Shown here: piece after piece, positions 5,432 to 30,973 of the stretch | How positions within the stretch are numbered: position 1 is the stretch's first letter | Layout of the letters: every line of letters begins with the position of its first letter | The notes under the pieces: model-generated | Database searches by the model: none | The model's input: only the letters and a program-made list of their open reading frames with translations | What the model was told of the DNA's origin: nothing | Source of the DNA: a virus | Length of the DNA: 64,000 bases | Virus record (IMG/VR): IMGVR_UViG_3300030098_001779 | Coordinates: 1 to 64,000 of that record | Direction: 5' to 3' (one strand) | Program-made: the position numbers and the translations under genes

Positions 5432-5493
5432 ATACCATATGAGTCGCTAAAACGCTTGTAAGACGATTTAAATGGCTCATATGCAGTATTTTT
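5432..5493 (+). terminator. Hairpin with T run (terminator or attenuator)
   Basis: ATAC-CATATGAG (5432-5443) pairs with CTCATATG-CA-GTAT (5476-5489), a 12-bp stem with a 2-base bulge, followed by five T. The 32-base loop can form a smaller hairpin. The ribosome site GAGGGG of the next gene follows immediately, so partial read-through is likely. Confidence 0.55.
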
Positions 5494-6207: not shown

Positions 6208-6415
6208 TGAAATATTGTATGATGAAAGTATCAACGATTTAGAAGGTATACTTAAAATGGAGAAATGGGAGAAAAGAGATAAGAAACGAAATACTAAAAA
6301 GAAGTTTAAAGACTTTAAAAATAACATAAAGTCAATAAGCGTTCTTGCAGAGATCTCAACTAAACCTGTTTCTAAAAAGAGGTATAGAAAAGATAAGGGT
6401 ATTGACAAGACATAA
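6200..6415 (+). CDS. Small basic protein (71 aa)
   Basis: Highly basic lysine-rich protein (residues 18-50 carry many Lys/Arg), a contrast with its acidic neighbours. ATG 6200 is the likely start, overlapping the previous gene; a GTG at 6191 is possible. Basic charge suggests nucleic-acid contact. Its last codons contain the -35 box of the next promoter. Function unknown. Confidence 0.5.
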   Translation: MLSEILYDESINDLEGILKMEKWEKRDKKRNTKKKFKDFKNNIKSISVLAEISTKPVSKKRYRKDKGIDKT

Positions 6416-6431
6416 TTGAATATGTTATAAT
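6402..6431 (+). promoter_or_regulatory. Class I promoter
   Basis: TTGACA 6402-6407, 18-bp spacer, TATAAT 6426-6431 with extended -10 TATGT. The -35 overlaps the end of the upstream gene. Confidence 0.85.
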
Positions 6432-6464
6432 ACTTGTATAGCAACTAAAACAGGATATAAAACA

Positions 6465-6950
6465 ATGAGTTTTAATAAAGCACGAAAGACAATAGAATGG
6501 CACAATGAAGGACATCAATTATCACAATGGGCAAAAGCTGATTATGGATTTGATAGTCAACACAATAATTACGAGATTACAGGTAATGGTAATCCTACAA
6601 CTATTGAGGGTTTAGAAGAAGAATACAATAGAGTAGGGTGGAAACAATGTACTGAATGTGATGAGAACGAATTGACACCATACGTTGAATGGAGATTAGT
6701 ATCTGATGACTATGATGAAGATCAAGCTGATGATAGTGAGTGGAACTTAGAAACAGTAGGACATATTGGTAAAATATATCCTATGGCTCATTCAACTGAA
6801 TTAAGTTGTTTAAGTGGTGGTGGAAAACCATGCTTTCTATGTTTAGAAACCATTACAGGTAAATGGGCAGTTGATGAGGGTTGCCCACATATTCAACTAA
6901 AAGAAAATGGTAAATGGGTAACTAAGTATGACTTTAGTTACTATGGTTAA
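6465..6950 (+). CDS. Cysteine-rich unknown protein, possible zinc binder (161 aa)
   Basis: Cys-Thr-Glu-Cys near residue 64 and a later cluster with Cys-Phe-Leu-Cys and a further Cys-Pro-His (residues 111-141) suggest one or two zinc sites. The rest is acidic and Trp-rich. Single gene behind a class I promoter, followed not by a gene but by a predicted structured RNA on the same transcript. No family recognised. Confidence 0.6.
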   Translation: MSFNKARKTIEWHNEGHQLSQWAKADYGFDSQHNNYEITGNGNPTTIEGLEEEYNRVGWKQCTECDENELTPYVEWRLVSDDYDEDQADDSEWNLETVGHIGKIYPMAHSTELSCLSGGGKPCFLCLETITGKWAVDEGCPHIQLKENGKWVTKYDFSYYG

Positions 6951-6963
6951 AAAGTTAATATTT

Positions 6964-7206
6964 TAAAAAAGGGTTTTGGAACATTTATGAAATGTTGATC
7001 AATGGATTAAATGTGAGTGGCAGAACTTTGGGTTGGTATCCCAAATTGCAGATTGGCAAACGAACTGACGAACAAGTGTTTGAGGTCGTGATGAGATCGT
7101 ATGTGTAGAGTATAAAGAAAGCGAGTGTTCAAAGCAGAACTTACTACTCACAGGACATCAGAGGACATAAAATCTCAATTCCTCTCTCTTACCAAAACCT
7201 TTTTTT
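6964..7206 (+). ncRNA. Predicted structured RNA, about 240 nt
   Basis: A 320-base gap with no credible ORF folds by eye into nested stems. The closing helix is GGTTTTGG (6972-6979) with CCAAAACC (7192-7199), extended by A-run against T-run. TGTGAGTGG (7012-7020) pairs with CTACTCACA (7144-7152). Inside are TTTGGG/CCCAAA (7027-7032, 7040-7045) and CAAAC/GTTTG (7057-7061, 7078-7082). AGAGGA/TCCTCT (7160-7165, 7180-7185) forms another arm. The terminal T7 run after the closing stem could end transcription. Probably made as the 3' part of the 6402 transcript; class unknown. Confidence 0.55.
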
Positions 7207-7212
7207 AAGGTA

Positions 7213-7242
7213 TTGACACAACAATATCAAATATGTTATCAT
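7213..7242 (+). promoter_or_regulatory. Class I promoter
   Basis: TTGACA 7213-7218, 18-bp spacer, TATCAT 7237-7242 with extended -10 TATGT. It starts just after the RNA's T run. Confidence 0.75.
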
Positions 7243-7270
7243 GAGGATAACAACGATTTAAGGAGATTAC

Positions 7271-7684
7271 ATGGCTTTAACATGGGACTTACGAAATGTA
7301 GACTTACCACAAGAAACTTTATATGTAAAAGAAGATAGTGGAGAAGAACATTTAAATCCAATCACTTGGGCAATCGTTTGGTCAACTATATTTATAGGAT
7401 TTAATGAAATAACTGAAAAGAATTTAAATGATTGGCACAGACGAATGAAACAATTAGAGATAAGTGGAATGGGATTGCTTGGAGAGAAAGATAGTGATGT
7501 AAAGCGTATGCCGAATTTAAGAGAACTCAAATTACACATTGGTTTAAAAACTAATGGTTCTTTGATTAAGAAAGGTTCAGCGTGGAATAGAGAATTAGTA
7601 AGACAAGTTAATCTTACTGCTGATACTATAATTAAACAAGAAAGAGAAGAACTAGCAGAAGTGGAGAAATCTGATGAAGATTGA
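7271..7684 (+). CDS. Unknown protein (137 aa)
   Basis: AAGGAG lies 7 bases before the ATG. Largely helical; residues 30-66 include a Trp-rich segment and MKQLEISGMGLL, and the last 35 residues are a charged helix ending in an acidic tail. First gene of a three-gene operon, overlapping the next by 11 bases. I do not recognise the family. Confidence 0.65.
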   Translation: MALTWDLRNVDLPQETLYVKEDSGEEHLNPITWAIVWSTIFIGFNEITEKNLNDWHRRMKQLEISGMGLLGEKDSDVKRMPNLRELKLHIGLKTNGSLIKKGSAWNRELVRQVNLTADTIIKQEREELAEVEKSDED

Positions 7685-16246: not shown

Positions 16247-19200
16247 ATGCCAAATATTGAAGCCTTGACAGAAAAACTAATGAAAGATCCTGACTTCAAA
16301 CCAAAAGCAGGCAAGACTAAACTTGAAACTGCTCAAGAAGAAGCAACTCAGAGAATGAATCAGCATAGAAAAAATGCTGCTGCATTAGCTTTAGCTGTAG
16401 AAAATAAAACTGCTATTGAAGCTCTTAGTGACCATGCTGAAAAACAAAAAGAATTAAAAGAAGTAGATGAGATGGTATTTGGTGTTCCTAGTGAGAGTGA
16501 TAGAGAAGCTATGGAACGTGAATTAGATTTAATAGAATTAAATGTTGATACAGATATAAAATTAGCTCCTCCACCAAAAAATACAAGTAGTCAAGTAAAA
16601 GAAGAATTAAAAACTATAATTGATTTACATTTGGCTACAAAAGAAGATACGGAAAACTTTGAGTTTGAAATTGCAAAACCTGCAAAATTACAAGATTTAG
16701 ATATAACAAAGGCATTTACAAATTTAGCTAAAGAATTAGGTTTAGGTGATGAAATCACAAAAGATAAATTAAAGCCTATAATAAGAGAAACTGCTATGAT
16801 AGTCATGAACTTAAAATATCAGTTTAACAGACCTAGACCTTTTCAATTAATGGATTTTCATGAAGTAGAATTTGAACCTGCAGATTTTAAATCTTCTAAA
16901 ACCCCTGCTTATCCTTCAGGACATTCTTTTCAAGGAACTTTAATAGGTCAAATATTATCTGATCTTTTCCCTATTTACGAAGAACAATTTAAAAAACTTG
17001 GAAAGTCTATTGGGGATAATCGTGTAATATTTGGAGTACATTACCCTTCTGATAATTATGCTGGAGTAGAACTAGCAAAACAAGTGTATCCATTTGTAAA
17101 CTTTGATAAGTTAGGCTTTCAAGCTATTCCACAAGAATCAGAACCTTTAGAAAAAGAGGACAATCCTAGAATACCTAGAAAAAAAGGACAGCCTGCAAAA
17201 TCAGATAAACACTCTGATTTATATACAGATGAAGATCCAAAAGACACAATTCAAGGATTAGGGTTTAAAGATGTAAAAACAGCAGAGGCATCTGTGAATA
17301 AAATAAAAAAATCTGGTAGAACTCATGCTCATAAGATACAAGCTGCTGTTGCTATGGAACAAAGAGCAAAAGCTGCTGGTAAAACTACAGCCGCAGGCGT
17401 ATATAGAAAATATATAAATGAGATGAAAGAAAAAACACAGGAGAAAGAGATTGAAAAACATTCTGAAGAACATCACACTGTGGAACATACAGCTGAAGAA
17501 AAACCATTTAACTATGATGACGCAATAGAATCCATAGGAACTCAAATAGAACAGATTAAAAATAAAATAAAAACTGGTGATTATGGCATAGAAAAAGCTG
17601 ACATGCCTCTAGAAAAAGCTACTCCTTTAGAAGTTCTTACAACTGGAGCTGCACTTGCTGCTGGTGGAGTCGCATTGTGGGATTTATACCAAACTTTTAA
17701 AAATAATAAAAGATTAACTAGAGATCAAAGAATTGAATTAGACGAAGCATTAGAGGCAAACGAAGAAGAAATAAAAAATATTCAAGTAAACTTTAATGAA
17801 GATCAAGAATTACCAGATTTAGAAGACACAGACAATGTTGCTGAAATAGTTGAAGCTGCTAAAGATCCAGAAAAAGCAGAAGATGTTGTAAAAAAAGTTA
17901 GGAAGAAAAGATGGGATGCAGGAAAAACTGCAGAAGAAAAACAGAAAATAAAAGAAGAAAGAGATAGGAGAAGAGCAGAGAGAGAAGAGAGAGGGGAGAC
18001 ATCACCTTTAGCTCCTGTTGGAGAACTTACTCCTGAACTAGAAATAGACTCTGTGCTTAGACAAGCAGAAGATTCTGGATTAATAGATCACATACATGAA
18101 CAAATAGAAGGGCATGGTAAAGATAACCCTTTCCATACTAAAGAAGATACTGAGAAAGCTATAAGAGCTAAATATAAAACACCTGAAAAGATGAAAGAAT
18201 ATTTAGGTAAACAACACGGTAAATTTGAAACATTTAAAGCTAAAGCTGAACAACAAAAAGAAAAAGATGATCAAAAAGCTGCTGAAAATCAACAGAAGAA
18301 TGAAGCTAATAGTGCTAAATGGGACATAGATGAAAATGTAAGTTCTGAAGATGCTGCTAAATCTATAAGAGAAATGTTACATCACCAAGAAAAATATGGT
18401 GGTAAGGGTCAAATGAGTTCAGCTCAAAGAGCTCACATTAAAGAACAAATAGATGAAGCTAAAGCTAGACTATCTCCAGATGATACAGAAAAATTAGCTA
18501 GAGAGATTCAAGATCATAATGATGAAAAAAAGAAACCTAAGAGTGAACAAGACACATCAAAAACTTTCGGTAGTTCAGATTATGAACAAAATGTTTTAGG
18601 TCAGACTCCTAAAAAAGAAGATGAGCCTGAAGAAGATAAAGACTACGAAGGTAAAGATATACCACCAGAAAGAAGAGTATATGGTGATCCTCCTGAAGAC
18701 ACTAATGTAAAAACTTATCAAGGACCAGAAGGTGGCTCTTTTTACGATAGAGATGAAGCTGAATCTAAAGAAACAGGTGATGATAGTGCCACAGGTGCAA
18801 AAGGTGAAGATGGAAAAGCAGTTCCACCACCAGTAAGAGAAGGTGATAAAGTTTCTCAAGATGCTCCAGTAGGTCAAAAAGCTGAACAATGGGGTAAATC
18901 TAAAAAAGGATTTATAGCAAGATTTCTAGAAGCTGAAAAAGCAGGATATGAAGCAGCAAAGAAAGAAGATAAAAAAGGTGACTTAAAAGATATATTTAGG
19001 CGTGATATTAAAGATGCAGTTACAGGAAAAAGTTTAGTAGACCAACTAACTTACTCTATAGCTAGATCAAGAGGATATGATAAAAAATCTGCAGAAACTG
19101 CAAAACTGTCAAATCAGGTCAGAGCATTAGTGAGAGCTACACAAATAGGTAAAGTAATTGCTAGAAAGACTCCGGGTTTTGAAGCCGAAGCAAGAGTCGC

Positions 19201-19345
19201 TGCTGGAGCAGAGGCTAGGCAGAATAAAGAAGCCTTAAATAGAGAGATGAAAATAGCTAGACAACGAAGAGATGGACAGCTAGATACTAAACTAGATAAG
19301 GGTGAAATAAAAAAACTACAGGATTTTCTAAGAAAGCGAGTATAA
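16247..19345 (+). CDS. Giant virion-type protein with PAP2 phosphatase domain (1032 aa)
   Basis: Residues 120-290 carry the full PAP2/acid phosphatase signature: Lys190-x6-Arg197-Pro198, Pro223-Ser-Gly-His226 and Arg259-x5-His265-x3-Asp269. These residues bind phosphate, with His265 as nucleophile in the family. Around 322-400 is a domain with DLYTDEDPKDT and many Lys, a type I have seen in phage and large-virus proteins but cannot name firmly. A hydrophobic segment lies at about 460-482. From 500 on the protein is charged, low-complexity and coiled-coil, ending in a basic tail. Size and position at the head of the virion block suggest a structural or ejected protein. AAGGA lies upstream of the ATG. 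Confidence 0.75.
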   Translation: MPNIEALTEKLMKDPDFKPKAGKTKLETAQEEATQRMNQHRKNAAALALAVENKTAIEALSDHAEKQKELKEVDEMVFGVPSESDREAMERELDLIELNVDTDIKLAPPPKNTSSQVKEELKTIIDLHLATKEDTENFEFEIAKPAKLQDLDITKAFTNLAKELGLGDEITKDKLKPIIRETAMIVMNLKYQFNRPRPFQLMDFHEVEFEPADFKSSKTPAYPSGHSFQGTLIGQILSDLFPIYEEQFKKLGKSIGDNRVIFGVHYPSDNYAGVELAKQVYPFVNFDKLGFQAIPQESEPLEKEDNPRIPRKKGQPAKSDKHSDLYTDEDPKDTIQGLGFKDVKTAEASVNKIKKSGRTHAHKIQAAVAMEQRAKAAGKTTAAGVYRKYINEMKEKTQEKEIEKHSEEHHTVEHTAEEKPFNYDDAIESIGTQIEQIKNKIKTGDYGIEKADMPLEKATPLEVLTTGAALAAGGVALWDLYQTFKNNKRLTRDQRIELDEALEANEEEIKNIQVNFNEDQELPDLEDTDNVAEIVEAAKDPEKAEDVVKKVRKKRWDAGKTAEEKQKIKEERDRRRAEREERGETSPLAPVGELTPELEIDSVLRQAEDSGLIDHIHEQIEGHGKDNPFHTKEDTEKAIRAKYKTPEKMKEYLGKQHGKFETFKAKAEQQKEKDDQKAAENQQKNEANSAKWDIDENVSSEDAAKSIREMLHHQEKYGGKGQMSSAQRAHIKEQIDEAKARLSPDDTEKLAREIQDHNDEKKKPKSEQDTSKTFGSSDYEQNVLGQTPKKEDEPEEDKDYEGKDIPPERRVYGDPPEDTNVKTYQGPEGGSFYDRDEAESKETGDDSATGAKGEDGKAVPPPVREGDKVSQDAPVGQKAEQWGKSKKGFIARFLEAEKAGYEAAKKEDKKGDLKDIFRRDIKDAVTGKSLVDQLTYSIARSRGYDKKSAETAKLSNQVRALVRATQIGKVIARKTPGFEAEARVAAGAEARQNKEALNREMKIARQRRDGQLDTKLDKGEIKKLQDFLRKRV

Positions 19346-26719: not shown

Positions 26720-27964
26720 ATGGCATATATTGGAAATCAACCTGCTGAAACACCAGTAAAAGAAATTTTAGAAACCGATATAAAAATTGGTGAAGACGAT
26801 CAAACTAAAATTGACTTTGAAACTGCTAATACAATTAATTTTTATGCTAATAACGCTAAAGAAGTTGTCTTAACAGAGAATAGTCTTACGCCGGGCACAA
26901 GTGATGGAACAGCTCTAGGAACTACAAGTCTTATGTGGTCTGATTTGTTTCTTGCTAGTGGTTCAGTAATAAATTTAAATAATGGTGATGTGACATTAAC
27001 ACATTCTGCTAATACATTAACAGTTGCTGGAGGCACATTAGCCACAGCAGCACTAACAGCTTCTACAGGTACTTTCTCAGGAATCTTAAAAACTGACGAC
27101 ACTACAGAAGCAACATCTACCACTGACGGTTCTTTACAAACAGATGGTGGTTTAAGTGTTGCTAAGGATGCAGTTATGGGAGATGATGTGCTATTATTAT
27201 CAGACAGTGCCGTGCTTAAGTTCGGAGCTGACTCTGATACTACACTTACTCATACAGACGGAACTGGTTTGACTTTAAACAGCACCAACAAGTTAACTTT
27301 TGGGGATGCTGCTTCTTTTATTCAACAGTCAAGTGATGGGGTATTAAGAATAGATGGTGAGGCTACTGTAGATATTAATGCATCTACAGCAGTAACAATT
27401 AGTAATGATCTTAAACTAGATAGTGATTCAGCTGTGTTGGGGTTTGGAGCTGATAATGATGCTACAATAACTCACGCAGATGATGCAGGATTAACATTTA
27501 ATTCTGCCACAACATTTTCATCATCAATAAATTTAGCTTTAGATGCCCATCTTGATAGCACACCGGGTGATGAAAAAGTATCTGGTATAACTGCTACATT
27601 TCAAGCAGGTGAAGCATTAGAAAGAGGAGAGTGTGTATATTTTAAAGCATCAGATTCTAAGATGCATAAAGCTGTAGCAACAGCATCAGCAACTTCAAGA
27701 TGTGTTGCATTAGCAGCAGAAGATCTTTCAGCAGATGCTAATGGTAAATTTTTACTCTATGGTTTTATAGAAGATAATGGTACTTTCCCAGCATATACAG
27801 TTGGAGGCACAATATTTACACCAGAAGCAGAAACATCTTCTCAAAATGTACCTGAACAAACAGCTCCAGATAGTGATGGAGATTTTGTTCAAGTATTAGG
27901 TTTTGCAGTAACAGCAAACAAATTATTTTTTAATCCAAGCAACGATGTAATAGAACACGCATAA
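26720..27964 (+). CDS. Tail fibre protein, cassette 1 (414 aa)
   Basis: Begins MAYIGNQPAETPV and continues with Thr/Ser/Asp-rich repeats typical of aquatic-phage fibres. Residues about 16-185 match the 29948 protein almost residue for residue (TDIKIGEDD, GTTSLMWSDLFLASGSV, TDDTTEATSTTDGSLQTDGG). The C-terminal 140 residues differ more and probably meet a partner or receptor. AGGAG is upstream; the stop overlaps the next ATG by one base. Confidence 0.8.
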   Translation: MAYIGNQPAETPVKEILETDIKIGEDDQTKIDFETANTINFYANNAKEVVLTENSLTPGTSDGTALGTTSLMWSDLFLASGSVINLNNGDVTLTHSANTLTVAGGTLATAALTASTGTFSGILKTDDTTEATSTTDGSLQTDGGLSVAKDAVMGDDVLLLSDSAVLKFGADSDTTLTHTDGTGLTLNSTNKLTFGDAASFIQQSSDGVLRIDGEATVDINASTAVTISNDLKLDSDSAVLGFGADNDATITHADDAGLTFNSATTFSSSINLALDAHLDSTPGDEKVSGITATFQAGEALERGECVYFKASDSKMHKAVATASATSRCVALAAEDLSADANGKFLLYGFIEDNGTFPAYTVGGTIFTPEAETSSQNVPEQTAPDSDGDFVQVLGFAVTANKLFFNPSNDVIEHA

Positions 27965-29947: not shown

Positions 29948-30973
29948 ATGGCATATATAGGTAATAAACCACCAGTTGTAGACAATTTAATAACTGATAT
30001 AAAAATCGGAGAAGATGACGAAACTAAGATAGATTTCGCAGATGCTAATACTATAAACTTTCATGCGAATAACTCGAAAGAAATGGTATTAGTTGAAAAC
30101 GCGTTGACTCCGGGAACAAGCGATGGTATTGCATTAGGTACGACTAGCCTTATGTGGTCCGATCTATTTCTTGCAAGTGGTAGTGTTATAAATTTAAATA
30201 ACGGTGATGTAACACTGACACACTCCGCTAATACCTTGACTGTAGCAGGAGGTACACTTGCGACAGCAGCATTGACTTCAAGCACTATAACTGCGAGTGG
30301 TATTATAAAAACTGATGATACAACAGAAGCTACCTCTACTACAGATGGATCACTTCAGACAGATGGAGGTTTATCAGTAGTAAAAGACGCAGTATTTGGT
30401 GATGATGTCCTATTATTGTCTGATAGTGCTGTGCTTAAATTTGGGGCTGATTCAGAAGCAACAATAACTCATGCAGATGACGCTGGATTAACATTTAACT
30501 CTACTACAACATTTCAAGATGTGGTACTAGCAGATGATAAAACAATTACATTAGCAGATGAAGGTCAATTAATATTTGGGGATACTGCTCCATCAGCAGA
30601 TCATAAAGCAACTGGTGTTGTAGTTTCAATAGCATCAGGTGAGTCAGTAACAGCATTTAACGCTGTATATATTAGAAGCGATGGTGAAGTTGGTCCAGCA
30701 GATGCAGATGCAGCAACAAGTATGCCTGCAATAGGTGTAGCTTTAGAATCAAAGAGTGATGGACAAGCTACTAAAATATTAATATCTGGTGTATTAAGAG
30801 ATGATACATATAACTTTACACCGGGTGCAGATTTATTTATTGGTACAACGGCAGGAGAAATAACTGCAACTGCTCCATCAGGTTCTGGAGATACGGTACA
30901 GAAAATTGGAGTAGCTTTAACAGCAGACTCAATATATGTAAACTTTAATACAACAGAAGTATTATTAGCATAA
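29948..30973 (+). CDS. Tail fibre protein, cassette 2 (341 aa)
   Basis: Paralogue of the 26720 protein, with a 73-residue shorter repeat region. The shared N-terminal 170 residues are nearly identical as protein but differ at many third codon positions, so the copies are not a fresh duplication. The C-terminal region (IASGESVTAFNAVYIRSDGE) differs. It opens cassette 2 behind its own class II promoter. Confidence 0.8.
   Translation: MAYIGNKPPVVDNLITDIKIGEDDETKIDFADANTINFHANNSKEMVLVENALTPGTSDGIALGTTSLMWSDLFLASGSVINLNNGDVTLTHSANTLTVAGGTLATAALTSSTITASGIIKTDDTTEATSTTDGSLQTDGGLSVVKDAVFGDDVLLLSDSAVLKFGADSEATITHADDAGLTFNSTTTFQDVVLADDKTITLADEGQLIFGDTAPSADHKATGVVVSIASGESVTAFNAVYIRSDGEVGPADADAATSMPAIGVALESKSDGQATKILISGVLRDDTYNFTPGADLFIGTTAGEITATAPSGSGDTVQKIGVALTADSIYVNFNTTEVLLA

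Follow-up and report, generated by a model that had tools for sequence, protein, structure and literature searches.

What is encoded by the stretch at 6964-7206, about 240 bases lying between the stop codon of gene 6465-6950 (gene A) and a promoter at 7213-7242 in an uncultured phage? The DNA analysed, hereafter the window, is taken from an uncultured virus record of 82,411 bases, of which it covers bases 1-64000. A sequence-only reading had described the stretch as a gene-free, multi-stem RNA between two transcription units. The absence of genes was borne out, since only short ORFs and no convincing gene were found there. We also considered a small-peptide gene and rejected it, as the longest stop-free stretches fall in different frames and strands in the different homologues. 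The placement between two units holds on the downstream side, where the promoter and gene B follow. On the upstream side it does not hold, because a promoter scan of 6900-6964 gave no promoter-like site and the nearest promoter lies at 6402-6431. The RNA of the window phage would thus be the tail of the transcript of the 6465 gene.

The window belongs to a tailed phage with genes for a family A DNA polymerase, a sigma factor and a large terminase. Its first 25 kb gave no nucleotide match among 50,697 phage records and only weak terminase matches were obtained, indicating that the phage has no close isolate. Two further observations were made on its proteins. The 1032-aa product of 16247-19345 carries, by eye, an apparent PAP2/haloperoxidase-type phosphatase signature (RPRP...PSGHSF...NRVIFGVHYPSD), which is unusual for a putative structural gene region. 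Two related proteins (26720-27964 and 29948-30973), both starting MAYIGN.P.. and sharing near-identical segments, are apparently duplicated modules of the structural region.

We searched for relatives of the RNA among viral contigs by several routes. Searches with the flanking proteins led to the same locus in L005 (99% identity) and L007 and to an empty site in L006, a genome that holds the RNA at another place (L015). A gapped pattern of the core identified L020/L111, and a covariance model built from five sequences and run on 50 records identified the remote copies L112 and L113 (E of about 2e-14 and 2e-13), both in records with related terminases. Two more patterns yielded L115, L118 and L121. 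The search of metagenomic phages proposed by the sequence-only reading thus gave nine further full-length viral copies, with identities of 99% (one), 92% (one), about 80% (two) and 52-56% (five distant copies). A second model (R2) built from all ten sequences recovered each of them at E below 1e-46, as expected by construction. Its scan of 61 records showed one credible copy per record in ten and nothing credible in the other 51, most of which are fragments. Several candidates were discarded: pattern matches in bacterial genomes (L026-L029) share the pattern alone and look like chance in coding DNA, L119 and L120 did not match the covariance model, and weak model matches in G029 and G030 were at chance level, the stretch in G030 being devoid of any invariant motif. 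A blastn search of the RNA against GenBank phages gave no phage carrying it. The contigs with relatives are IMG/VR records, presumably of marine origin to judge from their dataset numbers. As far as tested, the RNA family is confined to related phages without isolates.

Conservation of the stems had been fixed beforehand as one of the points on which the RNA would stand or fall, and the stems proved to be conserved. In the ten-sequence alignment (A4), which was fitted to the model and in which the key stems P1, P3 and P7 were also read directly in the sequences, 96.4% of the paired cells were standard pairs. Both sides had changed in 32 of 56 pairs (108 cells), many of these double changes being carried by the two main sequence groups, which are 52-56% identical to each other. 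Control structures slid by 1 to 3 columns gave 39-46% pairing and 6-11 double-changed pairs, and the observed pairing, double changes and covariation score were each above those of every shuffle. Among the five close sequences, 99.6% of the cells pair and 10 pairs have changed on both sides. The paired cells of the ten sequences include 42 G-U and 1 A-C, which shows that the RNA is read on the plus strand. The covariation thus exceeds the controls on one strand, as befits a structured non-coding RNA, and the proposal of a structured intergenic RNA is upheld by compensatory change across ten sequences. The features of the locus are listed in Table 1.

Table 1. Coordinates of the structured RNA, its elements and the neighbouring promoters in the window.
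Feature	Position	Strand	Observation
Promoter TTGACA-18-TATAAT of the transcript predicted to carry the RNA at its 3' end	6402..6431	+	12/12 consensus match
Whole structured RNA	6964..7207	+	Covariance model matches in ten viral sequences; covariation; G-U cells
P1 closing helix, 5' strand AAAAAAGGGUUUUGG	6965..6979	+	Largely rewritten in L015/L111/L115/L121, pairing kept
P2 hairpin (6981-6987 with 7008-7014), conserved loop UGAAAUG...AAUGGAU	6981..7014	+	ACAUUUA/UAAAUGU <-> ACUCUUA/UAAGAGU <-> CUUGA/UCAAG
Single-stranded block UGxGUGGCAGAA	7014..7025	+	Invariant in ten sequences bar one position
P3 hairpin (7027-7032 with 7040-7045)	7027..7045	+	5/6 pairs double-changed
P5 hairpin ACGA.CU..CGAAC / GUUUG.GG.UCGU	7060..7089	+	Upper stem CGAAC/GUUUG -> UGGCA/UGCUG
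P6 composite helix (7101-7104/7155-7158, 7108-7112/7145-7149, 7127-7130/7137-7140)	7101..7158	+	AUGU/ACAU <-> AUGC/GCAU; GUUC/GAAC <-> GUAC/GUAC
P7 hairpin (7160-7165 with 7180-7185)	7160..7185	+	AGAGGA/UCCUCU <-> GAAUGU/ACAUUC <-> GAUUGG/CCAAUC; 100% of cells paired
P1 closing helix, 3' strand CCAAAACCUUUUUUU	7192..7206	+	Covariation; T7 run at 7200-7206
Promoter TTGACA-18-TATCAT of the next unit (gene 7271-7684)	7213..7242	+	11/12 consensus match

The closing stem described earlier, GGUUUUGG/CCAAAACC plus A6/U6, is present in the window together with the terminal T run, and it corresponds to P1, which reads GGUUUUGG/CCAAAACC, GUUGGG/CCCAAC and GUGUGUUGG/CCAGCACAC in different copies. P3 likewise reads UUUGGG/CCCAAA, UUCGGU/ACCGAA and UUGUUC/GAACAA. 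Other stems of that description did not survive the comparison. The 9-bp internal stem UGUGAGUGG/CUACUCACA, which the single-sequence fold also prefers, is broken in L015 and L111/L020 and absent from the distant copies, and its place is taken by the conserved pairing AUGU/ACAU plus GAGUA/UACUC. One of the hairpins was wrong as well: the local hairpin ACAUUUAUGAAAUGU is not conserved, and the helix kept instead is P2. A helix P4 enclosing P5 is supported in the distant group only (GCUUA/UAAGC vs GUCUA/UAGAC), with one mismatch in L112. Two tertiary contacts were tried by eye and dropped. A pseudoknot joining the P5-P6 joint to the P7 loop (UGAGAU/AUCUCA) fits the window and fails in L015, and a dimer contact through the palindromic P2 loop (UUGAUCAA, UUAGCUAA) fails in L113.

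Invariant or nearly invariant blocks lie in the loops and junctions (GAAA...A.UGGAUU, UG.GUGGCAGAA, ACGAAC and UGAGGUCGU), and the last two, which flank P5, are also part of it. The window and L007 copies of the RNA share 92.5% identity, as against 82% and 85% identity at the nucleotide level for genes A and B. This conservation pattern would fit an RNA selected for its shape and for specific contacts. An unpaired invariant core between rewritten stems also has a ribozyme-like look, and a self-cleaving or otherwise catalytic RNA may be considered. With no ribozyme in Rfam matching, we give that reading a slim chance.

The folding energy by itself is modestly above chance, and the comparative evidence is decisive. 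The MFE of 6964-7206 was -61.5 as compared to -50.7 +/- 4.3 for shuffled sequences (z = -2.5; 0 of 200 shuffles), and the minus strand folded about equally well (z = -2.3). This z value, similar on both strands, and the T7 run directly after the closing stem are what an elaborate intrinsic terminator or a chance fold in AT-rich DNA would give, and the stem plus T run at the 3' end of the window RNA does resemble a terminator. However, neither reading accounts for double changes and covariation above the controls, nor for loops and junctions that are strongly conserved and would be needless for a terminator. Furthermore, the T run is missing in L015 and the distant copies, and no terminator-like site was called in a scan of 6300-7350. 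The earlier remark that there is more pairing here than in a terminator applies to a conserved multibranch, multi-helix structure of over 200 nt. A terminator or chance fold is scarcely tenable, and the terminator is rejected.

The surroundings of the RNA vary among the copies; the gene names Y, HTH-like and NUDIX-like used here were read from sequence alone. In the window group, the RNA begins 13 bases after gene A and a new promoter begins 6 bases past its end. The RNA in L015/L111 lies ~17 bases after a strong promoter and before gene Y, in a 5' UTR without a terminator. In L113 it is preceded by a 57-codon ORF and followed by a promoter, and in L115 a promoter-like site is found about 210 bases upstream of it and an HTH-like gene downstream. 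In L112 a near-consensus promoter precedes it by about 610 bases, in DNA without a long ORF and with a clear terminator at the end; a NUDIX-like gene behind a terminator follows in both L112 and L118. In L121 a promoter-like stretch, seen by eye and missed by the promoter scan, shortly precedes the RNA, and a second foldable stretch follows. Since the neighbouring genes differ, no single gene is tied to the RNA.

These contexts bear on whether the RNA is a cis-acting mRNA element (a leader, a riboswitch-like element or a 3' stability or processing element) that controls the attached gene. Its position between the promoter and the ribosome-binding site of gene Y in L015/L111 fits a leader role there, and in the window it forms the 3' tail of gene 6465-6950, ending in the T run. 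However, the six contexts share no constant upstream or downstream gene, in several copies a terminator or a new promoter comes next, and genes A, B and Y also occur without the RNA. No constant downstream gene or function, as expected for a cis-regulatory leader, was found. The differing neighbours, together with an empty site in a genome that holds the RNA elsewhere, indicate that it is not a terminator and probably not the leader of one gene. We consider a cis-acting element rather unlikely, with about one chance in five.

The clean empty site in L006 and the two alternative sites in related genomes could also reflect a selfish or mobile element of a MITE-like or intron-like kind, moving from one intergenic site to another, and the terminal inverted repeat with TTAA at both ends in the window points the same way. 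However, there is one copy per genome record, no intron in Rfam matched, and the local gene order is shuffled anyway, which can explain the move: in G002, where a gene block has been swapped, genes A and B directly adjoin each other with no RNA in between, and the RNA lies at another site. In addition, the terminal repeat is conserved in pairing and not in sequence, so that there is no fixed end for a transposase. Neither conserved terminal repeats nor multiple copies, as in MITEs and other inverted-repeat transposons, were found; the inverted-repeat transposon is rejected, and mobility of any kind is very improbable.

Some features near the copies were noted in passing. Promoters of very similar sequence (TTGACA-18-TATAAT, a TG preceding the second hexamer) recur before small genes at 6402-6431 and 7213-7242 in the window and at L015:1443-1472, and such repeats may drive the local gene shuffling between G000 and G002. 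A hairpin at about 5434-5485 of the window, CAUAUGAG...CUCAUAUG followed by T5, also occurs with a changed stem just upstream of the promoter of the RNA in L015 and is likely a terminator or other small element. Units of ~0.95 kb without 50-codon ORFs and with a promoter were seen at L112:590-1570 and L118:5290-6190 (both minus strand), with a terminator in L112. The RNA lies near their 3' ends and the upstream parts seem to form stems, e.g. CUCAUGAAAUUGAUGAG versus UUCAUAAAGCUAAUGAA; these units may be a longer structured RNA. L115:186-386, between the promoter-like site and the RNA, holds two foldable stretches (CUGGUG..CACCAG and AGAGAAUAAG..CUUAUUCUCU), the first sharing GGGAGAUAG with L112. 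Directly after the RNA in L121 (9905-10030), a long closing stem AAGAUGAG/CUCAUCUU is found, with an energy no better than that of shuffles.

We favour a trans role, on account of the changing neighbours, the single copy, the loop conservation and the apparent own transcription units in several relatives. The locus would encode a phage-encoded structured non-coding RNA of ~240 nt that acts in trans by its shape and invariant blocks, most plausibly by binding a protein or RNP; this reading is about twice as likely as not. In the proposed architecture, P1 would close a multibranch junction bearing hairpins P2, P3 and P5, composite helix P6 and hairpin P7, with the invariant blocks UGAAAUG..AAUGGAU, GUGGCAGAA, ACGAAC and UGAGGUCGU presented as single strands between the stems. 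The window phage, in which no dedicated promoter is seen, would produce the RNA as the 3' end of the transcript of the 6465-6950 gene and would have to release it by processing. Relatives would transcribe it from a promoter directly upstream or carry it as the 3' domain of a longer RNA. Whereas family, structure, strand and variable location are shown by the comparison, transcription and release, action in trans and the binding partner are what we infer from it. The partner may most plausibly be a host or phage protein or RNP, for which the RNA would serve as decoy or scaffold, as a best guess. The strong comparative support, the defined invariant core and the variable genome position make a trans role directly testable, and the covariance model can be used on marine metatranscriptomes to gauge the abundance of the RNA during infection.

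Phages are thought to hold many structured RNAs, and to our knowledge few such families have been documented outside cultured phages. The window gave no Rfam 15 match at gathering score, a negative that covers published marine RNA motifs such as IMES only as far as Rfam includes them. Under relaxed settings the best scores were 11.9 and 7.5 bits, far below the cut-offs, and L112, L113, L115 and L118 gave no match at E<=1. Weak matches to the sR12 C/D-box and SCARNA7 RNAs were dismissed as chance-level. A search of the literature outside subscription papers found no description of the RNA. The phi29-type pRNA, also encoded by a phage, shares with the present RNA a closing helix and a multihelix junction; however, there is no Rfam match, and the large terminase of the window phage is encoded by a gene of the usual kind. 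GOLLD RNAs often lie near tRNA genes, whereas no tRNA was found in the window or in eight related loci, and the GOLLD model gave no match, even at a relaxed E-value.

By kind, GOLLD and ROOL are nearest to the present RNA. Both are phage-encoded ornate RNAs that form cages (PMC12286853). GOLLD, whose function is unknown, has a conserved 3' region and a less conserved 5' region, and ROOL is a multibranch RNA of phages and prophages, also of unknown function, with an example of 659 nt (PMC12286853). L112 and L118 resemble GOLLD in that a long 5' part precedes the conserved domain, which lies at the 3' end, but the conserved portion of the present RNA measures about 240 nt and occurs by itself in the window. 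The likeness to ROOL is that of a phage-encoded multibranch RNA; ROOL is, however, much longer and different in sequence, and the present RNA is without an Rfam match. The cages of GOLLD and ROOL are RNA-only, homo-oligomeric assemblies. The present RNA appears to be a previously unlisted phage RNA family, new within a known kind, the orphan structured RNAs of phages, to which GOLLD and ROOL belong. More speculatively, and with the odds well against it, the RNA could be the core common to a modular phage RNA family whose members span 240 nt to roughly 1 kb (window, L115, L112/L118). During infection these RNAs would come together in a particle or an inhibitory complex, by themselves or jointly with a host factor, and would thereby parallel GOLLD and ROOL as an independent counterpart.
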